Assembly: GCF_009708075.1 (NCBI RefSeq) | Contig: NZ_WMBT01000004.1 | Span: 1-64,000 of the forward strand | Reading direction: 5' to 3' | DNA: 64,000 nucleotides | Source: Paracoccus lichenicola | GTDB taxonomy: Bacteria; Pseudomonadota; Alphaproteobacteria; Rhodobacterales; Rhodobacteraceae | Shown: positions 13,779-18,915 of the stretch, one piece after another | How the letters are laid out: every line of letters begins with the position of its first letter | How positions within the stretch are numbered: position 1 is the first letter of the stretch | Position numbers and translations under genes: made by a program | The notes under the pieces: model-generated | The model's input: only the letters and a program-made list of their open reading frames with translations | Database searches by the model: none | Told to the model about the DNA's origin: nothing

Positions 13779-14933
13779 TTATTCAAAGCCCATCACCGTG
13801 GCCCGCGTCATCGCGCCAAAGCCGTTGAAGCGGGTGTTGGTCACGACCGAATAGGCGCCTGCGCCGTGGAAGATGACATAGTCGTCCTCGGCGATGTCGT
13901 CTGGCAGGGCCAGCTCGCCCGGCAGGCGGTCCACCGAATCGCAGGTCGGGCCGAAGATCACGCGGCCCGTCCGTTCGCCGCTGCGCGGCCTGCCTTGCGG
14001 GGTCAGGACCTCGATGCGGTCGAGATTGCCGATGACCGGCAGTTCGGCCAGGTTGCCATAGACGCCGTCGTTCAGGAACACGTTTGCGCCGTCGCGCAGG
14101 CCCTTGACGCGGGCGATCAGCGCATAGGCGTCGGCGCACAGGCCCCGGCCCGGTTCGCAGACAAGCGCGGGGGCGTCCGTGCCGAAGCATTCGGCCACCG
14201 TGTCGCCGATCTTGGTGAAGATCGACGGCAGGTCGGGCGCCACCCCCGCCAGGCGGTGCGAGGGGAAGCCGCCGCCCACGTTCAGCCGATGCGCCCGGAC
14301 ACCCGCCATGTAGCAGATCTCGCGCGCCACGCGGATATAGCTTTCCCAAGCCATCGGGTCGGTGCATTGCGTGCCCGGATGGAAGGTCAGCGAGGCGACA
14401 TGACCCCGATCCGCCACCCGCCGCAGCAGATCGGCCGCCAGATCCGGCGTGGCCCCGAACTTGGACCCGAAGTCATAGGCCGCGCCCGGCACCGGCAGCT
14501 TGAAGCGGGGCGAGATCTCGACCCCCTGCCCTTCGACCGAAACCGGCACCTGCTCGAACAGCTTGTCCAGCTCGCTGCCGCTGTCCACCGACCAAGCAAG
14601 GATCCCTTCGCGCACGCCATGGGCGATTTCCCGGCGCGAGCGGACGGGGTTGTGGTAATGGCGCGCCGTGCCCGGGGCCAGGCGGCCGATCAGGTCGATC
14701 TCGTACGGCGAGGCCACGTCGAAGCCCTGGATCCCCGCCGTGACGAGGTTCTGGATCACGGTCTCGTCCGGGTTCGACTTCACGGCATAGGTGACAAGGC
14801 CCGGAAAGCCCGCCAGGAACTGCCGTGCGCGGTCCTGCAACACCGTGGGCGCGAAGGCCATCACCGGATGGTCGGGCTGAAGATGGCGGATCAGGTCGGC
14901 CGGATTGTCCCAGACGGTCTTCTGTGTCCTCAT
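13779..14933 (-). CDS. Fold-type III ornithine/lysine decarboxylase
   Basis: A 384-residue PLP decarboxylase of the eukaryotic-like ODC/LDC group, which makes putrescine (or cadaverine) for polyamine synthesis. The PLP lysine is K52 in TYAVKSNPD. Other active-site elements are HPGTQC, the glycine loop NVGGGFPS, CEPGRGLCADA and the dimer-interface Cys at about residue 331 in FGPTCDSVD. ATG 14933 follows AAAGGATCC; a 24-residue upstream extension is unlikely. It is divergent from an Lrp regulator. Ornithine versus lysine preference cannot be read with certainty; putrescine formation fits the carboxynorspermidine genes at 50-52.5 kb. Confidence 0.9.
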   Translation of the reverse strand: MRTQKTVWDNPADLIRHLQPDHPVMAFAPTVLQDRARQFLAGFPGLVTYAVKSNPDETVIQNLVTAGIQGFDVASPYEIDLIGRLAPGTARHYHNPVRSRREIAHGVREGILAWSVDSGSELDKLFEQVPVSVEGQGVEISPRFKLPVPGAAYDFGSKFGATPDLAADLLRRVADRGHVASLTFHPGTQCTDPMAWESYIRVAREICYMAGVRAHRLNVGGGFPSHRLAGVAPDLPSIFTKIGDTVAECFGTDAPALVCEPGRGLCADAYALIARVKGLRDGANVFLNDGVYGNLAELPVIGNLDRIEVLTPQGRPRSGERTGRVIFGPTCDSVDRLPGELALPDDIAEDDYVIFHGAGAYSVVTNTRFNGFGAMTRATVMGFE

Positions 14934-15037
14934 CGGCGGATCCTTTCGCGTTCGCGGGGTTGCGGCCCTCGGGTCCAGAATGACGCCTCGGGCCGGCGAT
15001 TTCACCGGCGAAAGGGATGGATTTGCCGCCCCTGCCG

Positions 15038-15048
15038 GTCATAATGAC
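15038..15048. promoter_or_regulatory. Candidate operator in the decarboxylase/Lrp gap
   Basis: GTCAT-A-ATGAC is a perfect 11-base dyad 37 bases before the Lrp-family start. A second imperfect symmetry (CCGGCGATTTCACCGGCG, about 14993-15010) lies nearer the decarboxylase. Both sit in the 151-base divergent gap, where an Lrp regulator would be expected to bind. AT-rich cores are typical of Lrp/AsnC sites. No footprint evidence exists. Confidence 0.4.
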
Positions 15049-15084
15049 GGCCATCATGGCTTTTCGACGATCTGCGGGACCGGA

Positions 15085-15516
15085 ATGGACGAACTGGATC
15101 GCAACATCATCGCGCTGCTGTCGCAGGATGCCCGCACATCCGTCGCGGTGCTGGCGCGGCGGTTGAAGGTTGCCCGGTCCACCCTGCAGGCGCGGCTGGA
15201 ACGGCTGGAACGCTCGGGCGCGATCGCCGGCTATACGCTGCGGCTTGGCGAGGCGGCACGGCCCGGCCGCATCCGCGCCGCCGTCCTGCTGGCCATCGAG
15301 CCGCGCAGCCAGCCCGCCGTCCTGACGCGCCTGAAGGCCATGCCGCAGGTCGAACGCATCCACACGACCAGCGGGCGCGTCGATCTGCTGGTCCAGATCG
15401 CCAGCGGATCGACCACGGAACTGGACGAGGCGCTGGACCGCATCGGCGCCATCGACGGCGTGCGATCCTCGGAAAGCCTGATCCACCTGTCTACCAAGCT
15501 CGACCGCGCGGTCTGA
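15085..15516 (+). CDS. Lrp/AsnC-family transcriptional regulator
   Basis: A 143-residue Lrp/AsnC protein. The N-terminal helix-turn-helix is at residues 1-45 (MDELDRNIIALLSQDARTSV, then RRLKVARSTLQARLERLE), followed by an alpha/beta RAM ligand domain from about residue 65. ATG 15085 begins the usual MDELDRNII. Being divergent from the ornithine/lysine decarboxylase, it probably senses an amino acid or polyamine and controls that gene. The ligand-binding loop region (TTSGRVDLLVQIAS) is intact. The target is inferred from position only. Confidence 0.88.
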   Translation: MDELDRNIIALLSQDARTSVAVLARRLKVARSTLQARLERLERSGAIAGYTLRLGEAARPGRIRAAVLLAIEPRSQPAVLTRLKAMPQVERIHTTSGRVDLLVQIASGSTTELDEALDRIGAIDGVRSSESLIHLSTKLDRAV

Positions 15517-15526
15517 CGGGGGCAGT

Positions 15527-16162
15527 CTAGCGCAGCCGGAACAGGTCCACGAAATCCTGCGCCGCCCCCGCATCGCCCGATAACCCGATCATCCCGTCGC
15601 TTGCCAGATCGGCCAGCGGCACCCGGCCATAGACCGCGCGCGCCAGGCTGTTGCCATTGCCCGACAGGGTGAAATCCGCCGGCTCCACGCCTGCCTTGGG
15701 GCGCAGAATGCCGTCGCCCGTCAGGCGCAGCACGAAGGACTCAGCCCCCATCCGCATCGCCGCCGTCACCTGCCGCCCCTCGGCCCCCCCGATCATCGCG
15801 GTCATGGAGATCACCAGCGCCGCCGGGCTGATGAACCGCCTTGGATCATGGCCCGGATGCAGCGCCCCCCAGCGGCACATCGCCTGCAGGACCGGCATCA
15901 GGTCCTGTCCCGAAGGCGTCAGCGCGTACTGCCCCGCCTCGTGCGTCACCACGCCTGCCTGCGCCAGTTGCGCCAGCCGCTGCGTCAGCACCGCCGCCGT
16001 GACCCCGGGCAGCCCGTGGCGGATCGCCTGGAACCGCTTGGGGGCCAGCATCAGTTCGCGCACCACCAGCAGCGCCCAGCGGTCGCCGATGATGTTCAGG
16101 GCATGGGCGGCAAGGCATCCCTCGTCATAGCGGATGCGCGGATCATGGCGGGTCTGTGACAT
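15527..16162 (-). CDS. HxlR-family winged-helix regulator
   Basis: A 211-residue regulator. The N-terminal HxlR domain (about residues 1-105) has the signature CLAAHALNIIGDRWALLVVREL, then RFQAIRHGLPGVTAAVLTQRL. A C-terminal extension of about 100 residues resembles an SCP2-like or ligand-binding domain (TGDGILRPKAG, RAVYGRVPLADLA), as in some larger HxlR proteins. It is divergent from the double DUF1428/VOC/GST operon with a 75-base gap holding an inverted repeat, so it is the probable regulator of that operon. HxlR proteins usually respond to electrophiles or redox signals. Confidence 0.87.
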   Translation of the reverse strand: MSQTRHDPRIRYDEGCLAAHALNIIGDRWALLVVRELMLAPKRFQAIRHGLPGVTAAVLTQRLAQLAQAGVVTHEAGQYALTPSGQDLMPVLQAMCRWGALHPGHDPRRFISPAALVISMTAMIGGAEGRQVTAAMRMGAESFVLRLTGDGILRPKAGVEPADFTLSGNGNSLARAVYGRVPLADLASDGMIGLSGDAGAAQDFVDLFRLR

Positions 16163-16176
16163 GGCACAGGGTATCA

Positions 16177-16197
16177 GTTGCTTTTTCATACTGCAAC
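16177..16197. promoter_or_regulatory. Candidate HxlR operator
   Basis: GTTGC at 16177-16181 is repeated inverted as GCAAC at 16193-16197, and an outer GTAT/ATAC pair (from 16171) overlaps it. The AT-rich spacer contains CTTTTTCATA. It lies 16 bases upstream of the HxlR start and 41 bases upstream of the DUF1428 start, as expected for a divergent autoregulated operator. Confidence 0.45.
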
Positions 16198-16237
16198 GGG
16201 CACCCTTCCTTTTGTGATCCAGGAAGGGGGGATTCTC

Positions 16238-16969
16238 ATGACCTATGTTTCCGGTTTCGTCGCCGCCGTGCCCAGTGCCAACAGGGACGCGTTCATCGCC
16301 CATGCCAGGGCCGGCTGGCCCTGGTTCCAGCAGCGCGGCGCGCTGCGCATGGTCGAATGCCTGGGCGCGGACGTGAAGCACGGCAGGCAGACCGACTTTT
16401 ATCGCGCGACCCAGGCCAGGGACGACGAGGTGCCGCTGTTTTCCTGGGTCGAATGGCCCGACCGCGCCACCGCCGACGCGGCCTGGGCCGGCATGGCAAA
16501 TGGCGAGGATTTGCCAGACATGCCCGAACCGCCCTTTGACGGCGCGCGCATGTTCTGGGGCGGCTTCAACCCCATCGTCCAGGTGGGCGAAAGCAGGCCC
16601 GGAAGCTATATCCAGGGCTTCGTGCTGGCCGCGCCCGAGGACAGGAAGCAGGCCTATATCGACATGGCCCGCAGCGCGACGGACATGTTCCGGCGCATGG
16701 GCGCAACCTTCCAGATCGAATGCTGGGGCGAGGACGTGCCCCATGGCAAGCAGACCGACTTTTACCGCGCCACGGACGCCAAGGAGGGCGAGGTGCCGCT
16801 GTTCTCCTGGATCGAATGGCCCGACCGCGCGACCTGCGACGAAGCCGCCCGCCAGATGGAGGCCGAGATGGAGGGGATGGAGATGCCCGACATGCCCTTC
16901 GACGGGATGCGCATGTTCTGGGGCGGCTTCACGCCAGTCTTCGACAGCAAGGCCGAGGTGCAGGGATGA
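16238..16969 (+). CDS. Tandem double DUF1428 protein
   Basis: A 243-residue protein built from two copies of a DUF1428 domain of about 118 residues each. Copy 1 (residues 1-118) and copy 2 (about 120-240) share the segments HGRQTDFYRAT / HGKQTDFYRAT, EVPLFSWVEWPDRAT / EVPLFSWIEWPDRAT, and ARMFWGGFNP / MRMFWGGFTP. DUF1428 is a ferredoxin-like barrel domain of unknown activity, normally found singly, so this is an in-gene duplication. A strong GGAAGGGGGG ribosome-binding site precedes ATG 16238. It is first in an operon with the VOC and GST genes (ATGA overlaps). The function is unknown; the context suggests handling of a reactive small molecule. Confidence 0.88.
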   Translation: MTYVSGFVAAVPSANRDAFIAHARAGWPWFQQRGALRMVECLGADVKHGRQTDFYRATQARDDEVPLFSWVEWPDRATADAAWAGMANGEDLPDMPEPPFDGARMFWGGFNPIVQVGESRPGSYIQGFVLAAPEDRKQAYIDMARSATDMFRRMGATFQIECWGEDVPHGKQTDFYRATDAKEGEVPLFSWIEWPDRATCDEAARQMEAEMEGMEMPDMPFDGMRMFWGGFTPVFDSKAEVQG

Positions 16970-17751
16970 AGGTTCACGGACGCCCCCTCTGGTTCGAGCT
17001 TGCGACCGGCAAGGGCCATCTGGATGCGGCAGGCGATTTCTATCGCAAGGTGATCGGCTGGCAGATCGGCGACAGCGGGATGGAGGGGTTCCGCTATCAC
17101 CTCGCCACCGCCGACGGCGACAGGGTGGCCGGGCTGATGGAGATGCCGGGCGATGTCGCGGACATGCCGCCCGCCTGGACGGTCTATTTCGGCGTGGACG
17201 ACGCCGACCGCGCGGCCGCCGGTATCCGGGCCGCGGGCGGTCAGGTCTTTCGCGAACCGGCCGACATTCCCGGCACCGGCCGCTTTGCCGTCGCCGCCGA
17301 CCCGCAGGGCGCGCCCTTCGGAATCCTCGCGCCGCTGCCGATGGAGGACGGCACGGGCGGCCAGGCCTTCGACCAGGCAAGGGCCGCGCATGGCAACTGG
17401 ATCGAACTGATGACCACCGATCCCGGCGCGGGTCTCCGCTTCTATGCGGCCCTGTTCGGCTGGACCGCGGGCGAGGCGATGGACATGGGCGGCATGGGCA
17501 CCTACCGGCTGTTCCGCCATGACGGCGCGGACATCGGCGGCATGATGGGTCTGGGCCAGGCGCCCCGGCCCTGCTGGCTGGCCTATTTCGGCGTCAACGG
17601 CGTCAAGGACGCGGTGGGGCGCATCACGGAGGCGGGCGGCACCGTGCAGCACGGCCCGACCCCGGTTCCGGGCGGGGCGCATATCGCCGTCGCGACCGAT
17701 CCGCAGGGCGCCCCGTTCGCCCTGGTCGGCCCTTTGGAGGTGACAGCATGA
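16966..17751 (+). CDS. Two-domain VOC (glyoxalase-like) protein
   Basis: A 261-residue protein with two VOC modules. Module 1 (about residues 5-125) has PLWFELATGKGHLDAAGDFY and VAADPQGAPFGILAP. Module 2 (about 135-258) has WIELMTTDPGAGLRFYAALF and VATDPQGAPFALVGP. This matches the CFP-30B-like VOC proteins of actinobacteria and alphaproteobacteria, whose reaction is not established. ATG 16966 overlaps the DUF1428 stop, and its own stop overlaps the GST start, both as ATGA, so the three proteins are translationally coupled. Confidence 0.87.
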   Translation: MKVHGRPLWFELATGKGHLDAAGDFYRKVIGWQIGDSGMEGFRYHLATADGDRVAGLMEMPGDVADMPPAWTVYFGVDDADRAAAGIRAAGGQVFREPADIPGTGRFAVAADPQGAPFGILAPLPMEDGTGGQAFDQARAAHGNWIELMTTDPGAGLRFYAALFGWTAGEAMDMGGMGTYRLFRHDGADIGGMMGLGQAPRPCWLAYFGVNGVKDAVGRITEAGGTVQHGPTPVPGGAHIAVATDPQGAPFALVGPLEVTA

Positions 17752-18389
17752 CCCTGGTCCTGACCACCTATGACTGGGTGCCCGAATTCGCGCGCGGCTT
17801 CGTGCGCGACATCCGGGTGCGCTGGCTGCTCGAGGAACTCGGGCGGCCCTACCGGATCGAGACCGTGCCGCTGCGGGACCGGACGGCCGATCATCTGGCG
17901 CACCAGCCGTTCCACCAGGTGCCCTTCATCCGCGACGGCGACCTGACGCTGTTCGAATCGGGTGCCATCCTGCTGCACCTGGCCGAGGGCACCCCCCTGA
18001 TGCCCCCTGCGCAGCGCCCCCATGTCCAGCAATGGCTGATCGCGGCGCTGAACAGCGTCGAGCCGTTCAGCATGGCCTGGGTCATCCCCAAGTTCTTCGA
18101 CCAGGACGAGGCAGGGGCCGCCAAGCGCGAACCCCTGCTGCGGCAACGGCTTGCGCAATTGCAGACGGCCTTGGGCGACCGCCCCTGGCTGATGGGCGAA
18201 GGCTTCACCGTGGCCGACCTGCTGATGGCCGACATCCTGCGCCTGCCCGCGCGGAACGGGTTGCTGGACGACCTGCACGGGCTTGCGGCCTACGCCGAAC
18301 GCGCCACCGACCGCCCCGCCTTCCGCAAGGCGCTGGCCGACCAGATGGCGCATTGGCGCGCGGCGGATGAAAGGCGGGGGGCGGCCTAG
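17748..18389 (+). CDS. Glutathione S-transferase family protein
   Basis: A 213-residue GST. The N-terminal thioredoxin-like domain (about residues 1-78) contains the cis-Pro segment FHQVPFIRDGDLTLFESGAIL, whose ES pair binds the glutathione gamma-glutamyl group. The all-helical C-terminal domain contains the conserved N-capping box GEGFTVADLLMADILR. It closes the HxlR-controlled operon. GST together with VOC proteins commonly detoxifies electrophiles through glutathione adducts, the likeliest role here. No terminator hairpin was recognised before the toxin-antitoxin pair. Confidence 0.88.
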   Translation: MTLVLTTYDWVPEFARGFVRDIRVRWLLEELGRPYRIETVPLRDRTADHLAHQPFHQVPFIRDGDLTLFESGAILLHLAEGTPLMPPAQRPHVQQWLIAALNSVEPFSMAWVIPKFFDQDEAGAAKREPLLRQRLAQLQTALGDRPWLMGEGFTVADLLMADILRLPARNGLLDDLHGLAAYAERATDRPAFRKALADQMAHWRAADERRGAA

Positions 18390-18454: not shown

Positions 18455-18634
18455 ATGCGAACTGACAGCCGTGCCGATATTCAACGCTGGATCAAATCCG
18501 GCCCGCCGGGTCAACAGGCCGCGCCGGGTTATGACGAATGGCTGAAAGCCGAGATCGCCGCAGGCATCGCCGAACTCGACGCCGGAAAGTTCATGACGCT
18601 GGAGGACATGAAGCGCGAATTCGGGCAGGAATGA
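18455..18634 (+). CDS. Short ParD/RelB-like antitoxin
   Basis: A 59-residue protein, MRTDSRADIQRWIKSG at the start and [15 protein letters not shown] at the end. The segment YDEWLKAEIAAGIAELDAGK resembles the C-terminal toxin-wrapping helix of ParD-type antitoxins. The usual N-terminal ribbon-helix-helix is not recognisable, so this antitoxin may neutralise without binding DNA in the normal way. It is shorter than a 60-residue cutoff and easily missed by gene finders. A GAAAGGCC ribosome-binding site precedes the ATG. The last codons overlap the toxin start in an ATGA, the usual coupling of antitoxin and toxin. Confidence 0.75.
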   Translation: MRTDSRADIQRWIKSGPPGQQAAPGYDEWLKAEIAAGIAELDAGKFMTLEDMKREFGQE

Positions 18635-18915
18635 GGATCGTCCTTTCGGACCTGAGCCGCCGACGGCTTCATGAAATCCAGTCCTATATCGCCTTCCACA
18701 ATGCCAGGGCCGCGACCCAGGTCGCAGACCGCATCCTCTATGCGGCTGAAATGCTGGCCGACTTCCCGGACCTTGGCACGCGGTGGCAAGGCGGATCCAC
18801 GCGCACCCTGGTGGTGTCGGGCCTGCCATACCGCCTGCACTATCGTATCGTGGGCGACACCGTTCAGATCATCACGATTGCCCATACCAGCCAGCGGCTA
18901 CCCAAGCTGGGGTGA
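18631..18915 (+). CDS. RelE/ParE-family toxin
   Basis: A 94-residue RelE/ParE-fold protein. Recognisable pattern: an N-terminal strand (RIVLSDLS), two helices ([40 protein letters not shown]), then strands [20 protein letters not shown] and a C-terminal IAHTSQRLP. The HNARAA and PYRLHYR features fit ParE (gyrase poison) better than RelE (ribosome-dependent nuclease), but the target is not provable from sequence. It starts inside the antitoxin stop. Four plus-strand genes lie upstream (DUF1428, VOC, GST, antitoxin) and valS follows 71 bases later. Confidence 0.85.

Follow-up and report, generated by a model that had tools for sequence, protein, structure and literature searches.

A conserved HxlR-DUF1428-VOC-glutathione S-transferase gene module of Paracoccus lichenicola with a predicted role in electrophile detoxification

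The closest described systems to the locus reported here are the regulons of the YodB, QsrR and CatR type in Bacillus subtilis and Staphylococcus aureus, which are governed by regulators of the MarR/DUF24 type. According to the accessible text of the respective reports, quinones are sensed by YodB through S-alkylation of its Cys6, the preferred site of this regulator being TACT-N7-AGTA (PMC8063818), and the conserved N-terminal Cys of the HxlR family has been reported to sense electrophiles or oxidants (PMC7835342). In the current analysis of a window of 64,000 nucleotides from Paracoccus lichenicola (contig NZ_WMBT01000004.1, positions 1 to 64,000), the gene of an HxlR/DUF24-family regulator is found head-to-head with a run of three genes encoding a tandem DUF1428 protein, a two-domain VOC protein and a glutathione S-transferase (GST). 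The locus is similar to the YodB/QsrR/CatR regulons in the regulator fold, the position of the presumed sensor Cys, the short palindromic operator-like site and the detoxification type of its predicted targets. It is distinguished from them by an additional, predicted SCP2-like domain in the regulator, by the sequence of the putative operator and by the targets themselves, which are DUF1428, VOC and GST proteins and not quinone reductases or ring-cleavage dioxygenases.

The products of the three target genes also have described relatives. Both halves of the tandem protein are members of the DUF1428 family, as is YbaA (PF07237; 2okq), which is however a single-domain protein encoded without this operon in the 5.1-kb stretch considered, whereas the module protein carries two domains in one chain. 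The model of the whole chain is matched end to end by tandem alpha+beta-barrel proteins, namely 2pgc, sulfur oxygenase reductase, the anthrone oxidase-like 5f9p and PenE (9kdp), with Z of 15.2-17.6; the identity is about 8-11% and a common fold shows no function. The VOC protein shares its two-domain build with Rv0577 (3oxh), its closest solved relative (E 7.8e-40), and with the AfsK-binding KbpA, whose NCBIfam model (NF053614) is its best match at 106.4 bits, below the cut-off of 250. For the GST the closest solved relatives are 3lq7 and 2ycd (E about 1e-43), the best solved-structure match being GSTH1-1 of Agrobacterium tumefaciens, an enzyme whose activity is abolished by loss of Arg34 (PMC3319563, as far as its accessible text goes). 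This catalytic residue has its counterpart in Arg20 of the module GST, which differs from GSTH1-1 in having Leu166 in place of Arg187 (an alignment reading) and Tyr8 at the position of Phe22, and which may use a Tyr-type mechanism. The features of the locus are as follows.

15527-16162, minus strand: HxlR/DUF24-family regulator of 211 amino acids (PF01638, 67.9 bits, cut-off 20.8)
16238-16969, plus strand: tandem DUF1428 protein of 243 amino acids, two PF07237 domains in one open reading frame (ORF; 220.1 bits in total, cut-off 27)
16966-17751, plus strand: two-domain VOC protein of 261 amino acids, two stretches of the Pfam family Glyoxalase (74.9 bits)
17748-18389, plus strand: glutathione S-transferase of 213 amino acids (GST_N/GST_C)
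16176-16192, no strand: probable operator AGTTGCTTTTTCATACT, a form of the RGTT-N9-AACY site apparently kept in related gaps
16177-16197, no strand: inverted repeat GTTGC-N11-GCAAC, with arms GTTGC at 16177-16181 and GCAAC at 16193-16197

The three forward genes are joined by ATGA start/stop overlaps at 16966 (DUF1428/VOC) and at 17748 (VOC/GST). These overlaps, the domain matches and the gene coordinates agree with an earlier account of the stretch made from its letters (the sequence-only reading), in which a coupled trio of genes in this order diverges from the HxlR gene. The same account had the DUF1428 gene begin at 16177, a position that belongs to the left arm of the repeat; the real start is the ATG at 16238, with AGGAAGGGGGG upstream, and Met1 is retained in 67 of the 68 aligned tandem proteins. 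The genome encodes no other DUF1428 gene.

As judged from gene neighbourhoods, the HxlR, DUF1428, VOC and GST genes constitute a real, conserved module. A scan with one genome per species yielded at least 585 relatives of the DUF1428 protein, of which the best 80 loci were read, the partners being recognised with their own profiles (HxlR within 4 kb at 200 bits or more, VOC within 2.5 kb at 200 or more, GST within 2.5 kb at 150 or more). They comprise 27 loci of the Paracoccus type, two of which (L012 and L081) were assigned by judgement, and 53 others, several on short contigs. Among the Paracoccus-type loci 25 have the HxlR gene, 20 the VOC gene and 15 the GST gene; the corresponding numbers for the remaining 53 are 26, 28 and 27, and 41 of these hold at least one of the three partners. 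The flanking decarboxylase and valS genes, taken as an internal control for inherited neighbourhood, accompany 20 and 19 of the 27 Paracoccus-type loci and none of the 53 others. Many sphingomonad loci have the permuted order HxlR, GST, DUF1428, VOC, which argues for selection on the gene set.

Within the genus Paracoccus, DUF1428 is encoded in 108 and an ortholog of the HxlR regulator in 100 of 121 genomes. Both occur together in 99 genomes, DUF1428 alone in 9, HxlR alone in one and neither in 12 (Fisher p 3e-10, a value that ignores shared descent). The orthologous HxlR matches are divergent to a DUF1428 gene in 96 of 106 cases, with profile-to-profile gaps of 88-165 bases. In a survey of 289 genomes of the class, 51 encode DUF1428, a family also present in E. 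coli; with at most 10 HxlR candidates scored per genome, five matches exceed 270 bits, all of which adjoin DUF1428, and the next best reaches 121 bits. Conservation of the four-gene neighbourhood, proposed earlier as a check, is strongly borne out by the 96 genus pairs and by the 41 loci outside Paracoccus.

The conservation of the intergenic region points to 16176-16192 as the probable operator of HxlR. If up to 3 mismatches are allowed, the 17-mer AGTTGCTTTTTCATACT recurs in 30 of 40 related gaps (Paracoccus 21 of 25, others 9 of 15) and in none of 1,600 shuffled sequences. It is present in most of the single-domain DUF1428 loci read and also beside an HxlR-VOC pair in L158, and was not found in L125, L131 and L143. 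The inverted repeat noted earlier at 16177-16197 does exist, but its GTTGC/GCAAC arms are disfavoured as the operator, since the exact repeat occurs in only 6 of the 40 gaps and the conserved site is the overlapping 17-mer. A wider pattern across loci is RGTT-N9-AACY, with perfect arms (AGTTGC-TTTTT-GCAACT) in L026. A symmetric consensus scores 18.5 or more in 56 of 80 gaps against 0.1% of shuffles, and 15 in 79 of 80 against 22% of shuffles, of which only the stricter thresholds are meaningful because the consensus was built from the loci that it scored. Possible -35 elements may overlap the operator-like site in both directions. In the P. lichenicola genome this place is the only match of an overlapping 21-mer at up to 3 mismatches, so control looks local; a wider regulon is disfavoured by this single site, more degenerate ones being possible.

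All the 49 regulators aligned match the HxlR-type winged helix at E 0.001, and Cys16, which aligns with Cys11 of B. subtilis HxlR, is invariant among them. The C-terminal part (about residues 105-208) is predicted from its model, and from a weak profile match, to have an SCP2-like fold. A profile comparison of sequences gives a match to the alkylsulfatase YjcS (E 0.0025), Foldseek relates this part to alkylsulfatases, UbiJ-SCP2 and SCP2 proteins, and its structural matches to alkylsulfatases have Z of 11.6-14.5. The window regulator narrowly misses the Pfam cut-off for SCP2 (21.1 against 21.3 bits), and at E 0.001 SCP2 is matched by 5 and Alkyl_sulf_C by 17 of the 49 members. The regulator model is confident along most of the chain (pLDDT 90.4) and poor at residues 14-16, which include Cys16. 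In the open-access literature, outside which most subscription journals lie, no joint treatment of HxlR and 'sterol carrier' has been found, nor one of any three among HxlR, glutathione S-transferase, VOC family and Paracoccus.

The two halves of the window's DUF1428 protein are 53% identical to each other. The in-gene duplication described in the sequence-only reading is present, but it is not unusual as was held there: among the best 80 of at least 585 loci the tandem is encoded in one ORF in 76, split over two ORFs in one (L077) and replaced by a single domain in three (L080-L082). Of 117 matches in the 121 genus genomes, 66 are tandem, 47 single and 4 fragments, as labelled from the profile range; the 96 divergent pairs include 62 tandem, 33 single and one fragment, so that in 33 of the 96 adjacent cases a single domain occupies the same operon place as the tandem. 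The two-module VOC protein had been seen as mirroring this duplication, to which we attach no weight since the two-domain Rv0577 has already been solved.

The model of the tandem chain (243 residues, pLDDT 95.2) is matched by YbaA one half at a time at 43-45% identity, and the protein is predicted to fold, within a single chain, into the alpha+beta barrel of two halves seen in tandem monooxygenase-type proteins. The residue pairs E40/E161, D45/D166, G49/G170, T52/T173, D53/D174, E64/E185, W73/W194, D101/D222 and R104/R225 are largely kept in both halves, and with the conserved polar residues so retained neither half looks degenerate. Trees of the halves were based on 114-115 columns, one of them on a chosen subset of 65 out of 226 rows. 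The N and C halves of the Rhodobacterales type and the Paracoccus single domains group in a single clade distinct from the other lineages (SH-aLRT support 99; 100/99 in the subset), a picture that fits more than one separate duplication and that gene conversion could also give. The single domain of P. onchidii (L080) groups with an N half (support 97/85), which suggests that its C half has been lost. The statement that DUF1428 has no known activity agrees with the open-access literature, in which no assigned function for DUF1428/PF07237 has been found and one paper naming the family does no more than list a gene, most subscription journals again lying outside.

The GST alignment consists of the window protein and 45 matches of at least 190 bits in the best 80 loci. 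Arg20 is kept in 45 of these 46 rows, the other having a gap, and the column of Tyr8 holds Y in 24, F in 16 and L in 5.

Given the co-conservation, the reactive-Cys position kept in 49 of 49 regulators and the catalytic-type Arg in 45 of 46 GSTs, we favour a module for electrophile detoxification under local control, comparable to the YodB/QsrR regulons, a prediction that is tentative and falls just short of an even chance. Of the inducible detoxification or catabolic system suggested earlier, the same three observations support detoxification, and catabolism stands as a serious rival. An HxlR dimer would occupy 16176-16192 between two divergent promoters and repress both. A lipophilic thiol-reactive compound, as a first guess quinone-like, would modify Cys16; binding of the hydrophobic compound or assistance in dimerisation is a possible role of the SCP2-like domain. 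Release of the DNA would then lead to joint induction of DUF1428, VOC and GST. The GST would conjugate the compound to glutathione, perhaps by an Arg-type mechanism; the VOC protein would be a binding protein or an enzyme other than glyoxalase I; and DUF1428 would be an antibiotic-monooxygenase-type enzyme built as an alpha+beta barrel, each half having its own ligand site, and its tandem gene representing the single-chain form of an otherwise homodimeric protein. A more elaborate version, which we regard as doubtful, holds that HxlR-SCP2 is a two-input sensor, combining a reactive-Cys switch with a lipid-type pocket, over a glutathione-linked pathway, and that DUF1428 is a cofactor-free barrel enzyme for quinoid or lipid-derived electrophiles that in one and the same operon has repeatedly alternated between a homodimeric and a single-chain pseudo-dimeric form.

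Several observations weigh against the detoxification module. None of the three partners accompanies DUF1428 in 12 of the 53 loci outside Paracoccus, some of them on short contigs, and 21 of the 117 genus DUF1428 matches do not stand beside the HxlR gene. In L158 the HxlR gene faces only a two-domain VOC gene, DUF1428 being absent, and the 8.7 kb around the tandem DUF1428 genes of L168 and L169 contain no HxlR, VOC or GST gene; nor are such neighbours seen for the single-domain ybaA of E. coli within its 5.1-kb stretch. The window's own copy of the operator has little palindromic symmetry (6 of 17 positions), the symmetric consensus is circular in the way described, and a scan for consensus promoters revealed no sigma-70-like site. 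The catabolic neighbours of some loci, described below, count on the same side.

Among the exceptions, all 10 regions of the non-adjacent HxlR and 2 of the 21 regions of the non-adjacent DUF1428 were examined. In L164-L167 a paralogous HxlR lies head-to-head with a GST gene without DUF1428 (L164 2731-4609, L167 2840-4639), a small VOC gene standing between them in L164, where it was checked with Pfam, and in L167. The regulator is accompanied in L160-L162 by a small VOC gene and a DUF899-like gene (both Pfam-checked for L162) and in L159 by a DUF899-like gene. In the paralog of L163 (3941-4687) the sensor Cys is replaced by Ser, and the usual partners are absent from its vicinity. In L164-L167 the pairing of regulator and GST recurs without DUF1428. 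Since HxlR, DUF1428, VOC and GST are lost independently, they are separable parts, and an obligate complex of the DUF1428, VOC and GST proteins is rejected.

Two plasmids carry DUF1428 in other surroundings. On a plasmid of Paracoccus liaowanqingii (L148 2797-7391) genes for DUF899, DUF1428, two VOC proteins, GFA, GST and GFA follow one another beside a MarR gene, an operon that again places DUF1428 in a glutathione-linked setting, here with another regulator. A conjugative plasmid of Mameliella alba (L147 2086-6477) has a single DUF1428 gene between two GST genes, together with two VOC genes and an alpha/beta hydrolase gene.

Other neighbours were surveyed by clustering the called genes of the best 80 loci, antisense ORFs included, with one member per cluster checked in Pfam. 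The recurrent ones are PhnB-type genes (PF06983) in 18 loci and RibD_C, small VOC and AHSA1 in 8 each. Clusters of CoA-transferase III, enoyl-CoA hydratase, TRAP and ABC-ATPase genes each occur in 4-5 loci and together involve 12 of the 80. In L016 (8137-12718) and L024 (7510-12413) the minus strand downstream of the module carries CoA-transferase III, enoyl-CoA hydratase-type and TRAP genes.

These neighbours bear on the possibility, which we consider unlikely, that DUF1428, VOC and GST degrade an aromatic or lipid-derived growth substrate, with the SCP2-like domain binding the substrate as effector and Cys16 not acting as a sensor. Genes for CoA-transferase family III (5 loci), enoyl-CoA hydratase-type proteins (4), TRAP DctM (5) and DctP (4) are found 1-6 kb away and favour such a catabolic operon a little; the carriers include a few roseobacter-type loci, and L016 and L024 hold all four gene types. 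The SCP2-like domain is suggestive of a hydrophobic ligand, and the fold relatives include proteins acting on polycyclic aromatics (the anthrone oxidase-like 5f9p and PenE). Yet the clusters are limited to the 12 loci, roseobacters carry many CoA/TRAP-type genes in any case, and Cys16 is the same in all 49 rows.

It is improbable that the neighbourhood is neutral, that is, that functionally unrelated genes have stayed adjacent by inheritance within Paracoccus. The components can go singly and many Paracoccus loci share their flanks by descent; against this, HxlR, VOC and GST recur in 26, 28 and 27 of the 53 loci outside Paracoccus, also in permuted order, the decarboxylase and valS in none, and the operator-like site recurs there as well (9 of 15 gaps).

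A metal-dependent glyoxalase module acting on methylglyoxal, one of the electrophiles named in the sequence-only reading, is very improbable. The VOC protein does match the Glyoxalase family of Pfam, and GST and GFA-type genes accompany DUF1428 in L148, but the glyoxalase I models give only 26.2 bits (cut-off 246) and 21.5 bits (cut-off 120). Glyoxalase I binds its metal through His residues. In 45 VOC rows the invariant residues include Trp9, Glu11, Tyr44, Trp71 and Tyr180 and no His is invariant or nearly so; by eye, the place of the first metal ligand is taken by Trp9/Trp145 and that of the last Glu by Gly119/Ala252. The metal site of glyoxalase I is therefore unlikely, and the identification of the VOC protein as glyoxalase I is disfavoured.

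Paracoccus includes methylotrophs, and the regulator has the family and the Cys position of B. subtilis HxlR, so a response to formaldehyde through the Cys-Lys crosslink of that protein was considered; it is the least credible of these explanations. B. subtilis HxlR is made insensitive to formaldehyde by K13A (PMC7835342, accessible text), and the position of this Lys, two after the Cys, is A in 34, T in 10, M in 4 and E in one of the 49 rows and never Lys. An anti-phage role is disfavoured, PADLOC having given no match for the four proteins.

Two observations concern the flanks. Between the GST and valS genes (18455-18915) a 59-residue ORF without a Pfam match overlaps a ParE-type toxin gene (PF05016, 47.7 bits), the two being a probable type II toxin-antitoxin pair. 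To the left (13779-15516) a pyridoxal-dependent decarboxylase gene (PF02784), common to Paracoccus-type loci only, is divergent to an Lrp-like regulator, as read from the ORFs.

At this locus DUF1428 is associated with a regulator and an operator-like site as well as with two recurrent partners, by which both its induction and its chemistry become directly testable. The occurrence of single and fused DUF1428 in one operon place offers a natural comparison of a homodimeric with a single-chain barrel.

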